Assembly (NCBI GenBank): GCA_031276915.1
Contig: JAISME010000054.1
Span: 1 to 41,259 of the forward strand
Length of the DNA stretch: 41,259 nucleotides
Origin: Zoogloeaceae bacterium
GTDB lineage: Bacteria; Pseudomonadota; Gammaproteobacteria; Burkholderiales; Rhodocyclaceae
Reading direction: 5' to 3'
The notes below the pieces were generated by a model. That model was given only the letters and a program-made list of their open reading frames with translations, had not been told where the DNA came from and searched no databases. Made by a program: the position numbers and the translations under genes. This document shows, one piece after another, positions 1,080-2,647 of the stretch; within the stretch, counting starts at the first letter, position 1, and each line of letters starts with the position of its first letter.

Positions 1080-1110
1080 ATGTCGCCCGCTCACGGGCAT
1101 GGATCGAAAC
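1080..1110 (-). repeat. CRISPR-repeat-like palindromic element A
   Basis: Minus strand GTTTCGATCCATGCCCGTGAGCGGGCGACAT; about 26/31 identical to element B at 2617. Confidence 0.6.
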
Positions 1111-1126
1111 AATAGCGAGGCTCTCC

Positions 1127-1969
1127 ATGCGACAGCATTCCACCAGAATATCTTCGGGCCAGCGGCGCCGCCTCACCGGGCGGCTGGAAGTCGAAACCGA
1201 GCAGGGCGCCTTCCTGGGCGACACCCGCATCCGGCTGCTGGAAGCAATCGACACGCACGGCTCCATCTCCAAGGCGGCCAAGTTCGTGCCGATTTCCTAC
1301 AAGGCCGCCTGGGACGCGGTGGATACCATGAACAACATGGCCGACAAGCCGCTGGTCACGCGCATGACGGGCGGACTCAACGGCGGCGGCACCCGCCTGA
1401 CCGAATACGGACACAAGGTCGTCGAACTCTACCGGGCGCTGGAGGCGGAATACCAGGCAACGCTGGAGCACCTGACAGCGAACATGAACAGCGGCGAGGC
1501 GGGTTCGCTACAGGAATTCCGCCGGCTCCTGAAGCGCATGTCCCTGAAAAGCAGCGCCCGCAACCAGTTTACCGGCACGATCATCGGCCTCAAGGCAGGG
1601 GAAGTGGATTACGAGGCGCGCCTCAAGCTGGATGACACCAGCGAGCTGGTCGCCATCATCACCCGCGCCTCCGCCGAGACCATGGGACTGAAAATGGGCA
1701 TGGAGGCCCACGCGCTGGTGAAATCCTCCTCCGTGCTCCTGACGACAGACAGGGACGCGCGCACCACGGCCCGCAACCACCTCCGGGGAGAGGTCAGCCA
1801 CATTCACCATGACGCGGTAAACGCCGAGGTAACGCTGGCGCTGCCCGGCGGAAAAAGCGTCTGCGCCCTGGTCTCGAACGACAGCGTCAGGCACATGGAG
1901 CTTGCCGTCGGCGTCCCGGCCTGCGCCGTGTTCAAGGCATCCTCCGTCATCCTGTGCGCCTCCGGCTGA
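1127..1969 (+). CDS. modE: ModE-type molybdenum-dependent transcriptional regulator (N-terminal HTH plus two TOBE/Mop domains)
   Basis: LLEAIDTHGSISKAAKFVPISYKAAWDAVDTMNN HTH typical of ModE; two Mop-like repeats SARNQFTGTI and ARNHLRGEVSHI. ATG at 1127 chosen inside the longer ORF. Confidence 0.9.
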   Translation: MRQHSTRISSGQRRRLTGRLEVETEQGAFLGDTRIRLLEAIDTHGSISKAAKFVPISYKAAWDAVDTMNNMADKPLVTRMTGGLNGGGTRLTEYGHKVVELYRALEAEYQATLEHLTANMNSGEAGSLQEFRRLLKRMSLKSSARNQFTGTIIGLKAGEVDYEARLKLDDTSELVAIITRASAETMGLKMGMEAHALVKSSSVLLTTDRDARTTARNHLRGEVSHIHHDAVNAEVTLALPGGKSVCALVSNDSVRHMELAVGVPACAVFKASSVILCASG

Positions 1970-2036
1970 CGCCCCGGACGAACGTTTCCGCGCAGCGCAA
2001 ACGGAGCCGGGACAAACCCGGCTCGCCTTGTTCGCC

Positions 2037-2465
2037 TCAATCCCGCACGCCCAGGATCACGTGGCTGGCCTTGAACAGCGCCGAAGCCGGAAAGCCGGGT
2101 TTCAGGCCCATCTCCAGCACCGCCTCGTTGGTGACAACGGCGTAAGCCAGCGCGCCGCCCTCGAGTCGAATGGCGACCTCGGAATTCACCGCGCCCTTCT
2201 CCACACGCTCCACCACACCCGGAAGATCGTTGCGGGCGGAAAAGCGGATCGATTCGCTGCCGGCCCGGACGAGAACCCACGAAGCCTTCACGAAAGCGGT
2301 GGCCTGCCTGCCAACGGCCAGCCCCAGGTTCCCGACGCTTTCGTTGGTCACGATGGCGACGATCCTGTCCCCGCCGGCAAGCGTCAGTTCCACCTGGGCA
2401 TTGATCGGACCGGCATCCACCTTGCTGATCGTGCCGGGAAAATGGTTGCGCGCGCTGATGTTCAT
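2037..2465 (-). CDS. Molbindin (tandem TOBE/Mop-domain molybdate-binding protein)
   Basis: MNISARNHFPGTISKVDAGPINAQVELTLAGGDRIVAIVTNESV... followed by a second repeat FSARNDLPGVVERVEKGAVNSEV. GGAG-type RBS upstream of 2465. Confidence 0.85.
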   Translation of the reverse strand: MNISARNHFPGTISKVDAGPINAQVELTLAGGDRIVAIVTNESVGNLGLAVGRQATAFVKASWVLVRAGSESIRFSARNDLPGVVERVEKGAVNSEVAIRLEGGALAYAVVTNEAVLEMGLKPGFPASALFKASHVILGVRD

Positions 2466-2616
2466 CCTTGTTCTCCTGTATGTCGAATCCTGGTTTCCGG
2501 GAATGTCCGGGCAACGCCTGCCGCCAGGCCCTCTCTCTGGCATGATTTTCGCTATCCCTTTTCGCATTGAGGCTGCAAGGAAACAACGCCATCATGTTAT
2601 GGGGCAGTATTGCAAT

Positions 2617-2647
2617 GTTTCAATCCACGCCCGTGACCGGGCGAAAC
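2617..2647 (+). repeat. CRISPR-repeat-like palindromic element B
   Basis: GTTTCAATCCACGCCCGTGACCGGGCGAAAC: GTTTCAATCCAC start, GCCCG/CGGGC stem, GCGAAAC end, as in type I-C style repeats. Confidence 0.6.

Follow-up and report, generated by a model that had tools for sequence, protein, structure and literature searches.

Two CRISPR-repeat-like palindromes in inverted orientation bracket modE and a molbindin gene in a 41,259-nt stretch of DNA from a Zoogloeaceae bacterium (the whole stretch is called the window here), which raises the question of whether they are crRNA-like guides or other structured RNAs, the ends of one mobile or invertible unit, or something else. Both sequences were found where the original prediction had placed them. 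As it had proposed, their likeness continues past the repeat-like heads, and it spans the entire length of two related elements of ~115 nt, A and B (alignment; inverted-repeat pairs I1, I5 and I6). A 30-nt head pattern occurs in the window at the A and B sites only, with 0 matches expected by chance. The modE ATG follows the CRISPR-like end of A at a distance of 15 nt, and B lies between the molbindin gene and modA. Their anatomy suggests that A and B are quite probably copies of an IS200/IS605-type mobile element that is non-autonomous and resembles the palindrome-associated elements known as PATEs. The features of the window, in which type 1 and type 2 denote a shorter and a longer form of the element, are as follows.

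998–1112, minus strand: element A, an old and diverged type-1 copy whose ATGAA end has decayed
1127–1969, plus strand: modE, with HTH_1 and two TOBE domain matches; a bystander
2037–2465, minus strand: molbindin gene, with a TOBE domain match; a bystander
2615–2725, plus strand (2615–2730 including the target): element B, an intact type-1 copy; its left ATG is the element's own end
2617–2647, plus strand: CRISPR-repeat-like head of B, with the hairpin CGCCCG/CGGGCG (head pattern and stem analysis)
2712–2715, plus strand: GGAG, a family-wide Shine–Dalgarno-like core, 10 nt ahead of the terminal ATG (conservation in the copy alignment)
2726–2730, plus strand: ATGAA, target pentamer of B, which reads TTCAT on the opposite strand and is retained as a single copy (boundary analysis; type-2 left flanks)
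7910–8072, plus strand (7910–8077 with ATGAA): type-2 relative that immediately precedes a SWIM-domain helicase-like gene (ATG at 8073)
15119–15214, plus strand: partial type-2 copy (E 2.5e-9)
36282–36350, plus strand: partial type-2 copy (E 1.4e-6)

A dispersed family with two forms

When B was used as a query against its own genome (2.3 Mb in 194 contigs, 86% complete), 41 matches were obtained on many contigs and in both orientations. About 29 of these are nearly complete in length, and identity reaches 92–94% in the best ones; in total, the genome holds about 40 dispersed full or partial copies. Type-2 copies measure ~170 nt with their ends and have their second (right) half in common with type 1, including a GGTTTC-AACC mini-hairpin, the CCGGAG motif and the ATGAA edge. 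They differ at the other end, which reads AGCAAGAAATTAGCGACAGG... and has no CRISPR-like head. On four contigs of the same genome (C128, C29, C53 and C90), two copies lie less than 2 kb apart, and all four pairs are inverted, like A and B. A second dispersed repeat of ~180 nt, apparently unrelated, is also present there at about 76–90% identity (contigs C171, C161, C97, C172, C125, C5 and others of G000); it matches the reverse strand of locus L011 (query 1–181).

Both forms also occur in other Rhodocyclales/Zoogloeaceae genomes, many of them from termite guts. The right-end pattern was found in 13 of 200 family genomes, with up to 73 copies in one, and the named records among the matches listed include Zoogloeaceae, 'Accumulibacter sp.', Azoarcus MAGs, a Sulfuricella MAG and others. 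We take the MAG series with copies other than Lab288 and Th196 to be termite-derived as well. The Lab288 and Th196 series themselves are higher-termite gut MAGs (PMC7024585). Among the plasmids searched, just one type-2 match was obtained, on plasmid 2 of Polaromonas sp. JS666, where a copy with 89% identity directly abuts an IclR-family gene; the phages searched gave no match to the element. In high-copy genomes, many contigs begin or end inside copies, which suggests that these copies are recent and near-identical. Five type-2 copies in one genome (BNUC01; loci L167, L203, L206, L219 and L221) have their downstream sequence in common (MNVVEMMDNISCG...) and look as though adjacent DNA had been copied with them.

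Boundaries of the element

Alignment in register of the 29 copies from the genome itself revealed sharp edges. Conservation exceeds 1.1 bits at the left edge and is about 0.2 bit or less to the left of ATG/ATGTTTCAATCC; on the right, it fades just past the terminal ATGAA. This pentamer is exact in 20 of the 29 copies, which were not selected by pattern, and most of the others carry a one-letter variant. Read on the other strand, the element begins directly 3′ of TTCAT and ends in ...GGATTGAAACAT (type 1) or ...CTAATTTCTTGCT (type 2). Terminal inverted repeats are absent, the ends CGAAAACAAACT.. and ..GGATTGAAACAT being unrelated, and hairpins lie near both ends, at distances of about 13 nt and 14–28 nt. 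The element has no coding capacity and, at about 115 or 170 nt, both forms are too short for a transposase.

A Y1 transposase (Y1_Tnp), which could act in trans, was sought elsewhere. None was found in the element's own genome, at its 86% completeness, or in the relatives G061, G177 and G143; Y1_Tnp matches in other relatives were fragments or unrelated members only. Examination of right-end loci and searches for Y1_Tnp and TnpB did not reveal an autonomous element with both ends (TTCATCGWAAAAC... and ...GGATTGAAACAT or ...CTAATTTCTTGCT). At locus L304 (G205 contig C20, 1455–1760), TTCAT^CGTAAAACAAACTCCG... (the caret marks the junction, here and below) runs into the C-terminal part of an IS605-type TnpB with 36 nt shared only, and this locus is possibly a deletion derivative of the parent transposon, although it could be a chance junction. 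At a second locus (L134; G111 contig C242, 862–1830), a type-2 copy adjoins a degenerate IS605 with tnpA and tnpB fragments. These searches also bear on REP/REPIN-type repeats, which are moved by RAYT transposases, also Y1 enzymes that serve a different element family. Such repeats are an unlikely identity for A and B: the copies are indeed dispersed, palindromic and extragenic, some in inverted pairs, and one RAYT-like protein is encoded in G113, a genome with one full copy, but a length of ~115–170 nt, several stems and a fixed pentanucleotide at one end do not suit them, nor does the lack of a Y1_Tnp match in the host genome.

Because ATG is found on both sides of type-1 copies, duplication of a 3-bp ATG target by a DDE-type miniature element was also considered. 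The left flank of type 2 decided against this duplication. In 42 type-2 copies with the right end ATGA(A), found by a pattern that requires GATGA and that can thus test the left flank and not the right, the sequence on the left side is random and is not ATG. The ATG on the left of type 1 therefore belongs to the element itself as its end, and the target is not duplicated. Moreover, variants on the two sides of a copy mismatch (ATA...ATG, ATG...ATC), and together with the missing terminal inverted repeats, this makes a DDE-type element very unlikely.

Sites without the element

Homologous sites in relatives were compared with occupied sites. In eight genus-mates, and in further members of the order, obgE has the same ATGAA start but no element; the junction reads AAACTCCC^ATGAAATTC in one relative and GACTCCC^ATGTTTC...CG^ATGAAATTC in the element's own genome. 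Similarly, the DAHP synthase gene of G206 has an ATGAA start and no element. No empty sites were recovered at hemW, the DUF485 gene or the L022 gene, where the flanks are too diverged, and in most of the empty-site comparisons the intergenic flanks were not alignable.

Insertion at start codons

About a third of the copies in the genome lie exactly at gene starts and about two thirds lie elsewhere. The terminal ATG of the element is the start of obgE and of genes for DAHP synthase, an N-methylated pilin-like protein, an EamA transporter, a DUF485 protein, a glycosyltransferase and an ABC permease. At other loci, mnmG, secD, purH, earP and genes for UDP-glucose dehydrogenase and a murU-like protein, all named from their N-terminal sequences, start at the ATG of the element. 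In two MAGs, murU-like genes have an element at the same ATG, but the element type differs between the MAGs, and the insertions are hence independent. Divergent genes may start at the opposite end of the element, as does hemW at L009, where ...AAACAT^GCCC supplies the ATG.

To place these numbers in context, ordinary ATGAA sites were sorted by a rough gene caller into 206 inside genes (69%), 75 intergenic (25%) and 16 at starts (5%). The same caller assigned 20 elements to intergenic DNA, 8 to starts and 1 to the 'inside' of a gene. The last of these is obgE, called on the wrong strand; after its correction, 9 of 29 elements are at starts and none is convincingly inside a gene. The elements clearly avoid gene interiors. 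Special targeting of start codons is not required, as starts account for 9 of 29 elements and for 16 of the 91 ordinary ATGAA sites outside genes. The most economical interpretation takes TTCAT as the target and has selection purge damaging insertions. Since the complement of TTCAT is ATGAA, gene starts make up many of the sites where an insertion does no harm.

The end that abuts these genes carries CCGGAG-N10-ATG, a plausible replacement ribosome-binding site with which the gene is probably still translatable. In some copies, the displaced native ribosome-binding site seems to precede the element, as with AAAGGAGGTATCGCA before the pilin gene (L005). Between its left and right ATG, the element has an open frame of 111 nt (window 2615–2728; also L002, L003, L005, L009 and L011), which in 17 of 57 unique copies is open and joined in frame to the downstream ATG; a 37-residue N-terminal extension could thus be read from the left ATG. 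Our literature search found nothing specific on insertion at start codons by such elements. We consider it possible, as a tentative idea, that the element is adapted to translation starts: its end might have evolved as a ready initiation region (GGAG-N10-ATG) that keeps the gene expressed and makes starts a safe harbour, and the opposite end of type 1 may, in addition, be a CRISPR-repeat-like hairpin that this form captured.

Stems and their covariation

A four-stem model was scored over 44 type-1 copies from several genera. Of its cells, 86% are paired, compared with 44–55% when the partners are slid. Two-sided changes occur in 43 cells versus 19 in shuffles; most of them lie in the second stem, in its outer part. 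All 4 pairs of helix 2 show such changes. With 47 G-U pairs against 63 A-C mismatches, G-U is not in excess, and there is thus no sign of selection on a sense-strand RNA; the stems fit single-stranded DNA hairpins. RNAalifold gave a weak consensus on an automatic alignment, and no curated Rfam family matched in the window at gathering thresholds.

If the element were a conserved leader RNA that regulates in cis and is under selection in front of many genes, stable, covarying stems and the GGAG and ATG at the 3′ end would be explained. Function as RNA would, however, predict a preference for G-U over A-C, and on this ground a structured leader, like the structured RNAs of the original prediction, was rejected. 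The position of about two thirds of the copies away from gene starts, the absence of a common theme among the downstream genes and the element-free obgE of relatives all point the same way, and we regard a leader RNA as quite improbable.

The CRISPR likeness and the A/B pair

The 14-nt sequence GTTTCAATCCACGC and the GC-rich stem give the type-1 head its likeness to type I-C CRISPR repeats. That crRNA-like guides or solo CRISPR repeats are present is nevertheless highly improbable, because neither Cas1 nor an array was found, the head is replaced in type 2 and the spacer-like regions are conserved family sequence. The search for cas genes covered Cas1, which was not found in the genome (86% complete) and was detected in control genomes; no repeat–spacer array was found in the genome either, and the matches to the head pattern are dispersed single copies of the element. 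The combination of no matching CRISPR with many copies across the genome is the outcome named at the outset as refuting the original reading. The resemblance, confined to one end of one form, is most simply a coincidence.

Equally remote is the notion that A and B are inverted repeats bounding one invertible or mobile unit: they do lie inverted around two genes, but B shares 94% identity with distant copies and just 78% with A, the family is present genome-wide in both orientations, and the enclosed genes encode TOBE-domain regulators rather than recombinases. Their identities indicate that A and B arrived separately and delimit no unit. Mobility, as originally suggested, is retained, with each ~115-nt element as the mobile unit in place of the bracketed pair.

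Proposed mechanism and implications

An IS200/IS605-type, PATE-like element would be mobilized as follows. In the orientation of transposition, the element would read 5′-TTCAT^CGAAAACAAACTCCGG...stems...GGGCGTGGATTGAAACAT^-3′. A Y1 (HUH) transposase acting in trans would recognize the palindromes near the ends and excise the element as single-stranded DNA, which would then be inserted 3′ of the pentanucleotide TTCAT without duplication of the target. At gene starts, insertion would separate the ATG from the native ribosome-binding site, for which the CCGGAG-N10-ATG of the element may offer a substitute. We infer the transposase class, the single-strand mechanism and the function of the replacement site.

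The family illustrates how a mobile element can be tolerated at the most sensitive point of a gene, as its target contains the start codon and its end offers a new, predicted ribosome-binding site. At important genes, obgE among them, the element rewires the 5′ leader. Its CRISPR-repeat look can mislead CRISPR finders as well as start-codon annotation; without sequence comparison, it could be misfiled as an orphan CRISPR or a riboregulator.

Comparison with known systems

PATEs are defined by the absence of inverted ends, near-terminal palindromes, no target duplication, no transposase and a 4–5-nt target at one end (PMC3119063). In Haloquadratum walsbyi, PATE copies are mobile and tnpA is disrupted (PMC3119063). 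The present element shares with them the lack of inverted ends and of duplication, the near-terminal palindromes and the short target at one end, as well as a size into which a transposase is too long to fit and many copies with intact tnpA rare or absent. It differs in being bacterial, in its target TTCAT and in having one end that doubles as a translation-initiation-like region, and its derivation from IS605 is only hinted at.

IS200/IS605 insertion sequences insert 3′ of a tetra- or pentanucleotide, have near-terminal hairpins and do not duplicate their target (PMC7290912). The present element likewise lies 3′ of a fixed pentanucleotide, with hairpins near both ends and no duplication, but it contains neither tnpA nor tnpB. 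REP/REPIN sequences with their RAYT (PMC2817692, PMC3116915) are similarly small, palindromic, dispersed and extragenic, whereas the present element is longer and modular, has the fixed TTCAT/ATGAA site and resides in a host in which no RAYT was found. Type I-C CRISPR repeats differ in belonging to arrays and in their association with Cas1. Taken together, these comparisons suggest a new family of PATE-like elements, unusual in apparently targeting the start-codon pentamer and in having an end that looks like a region of translation initiation.
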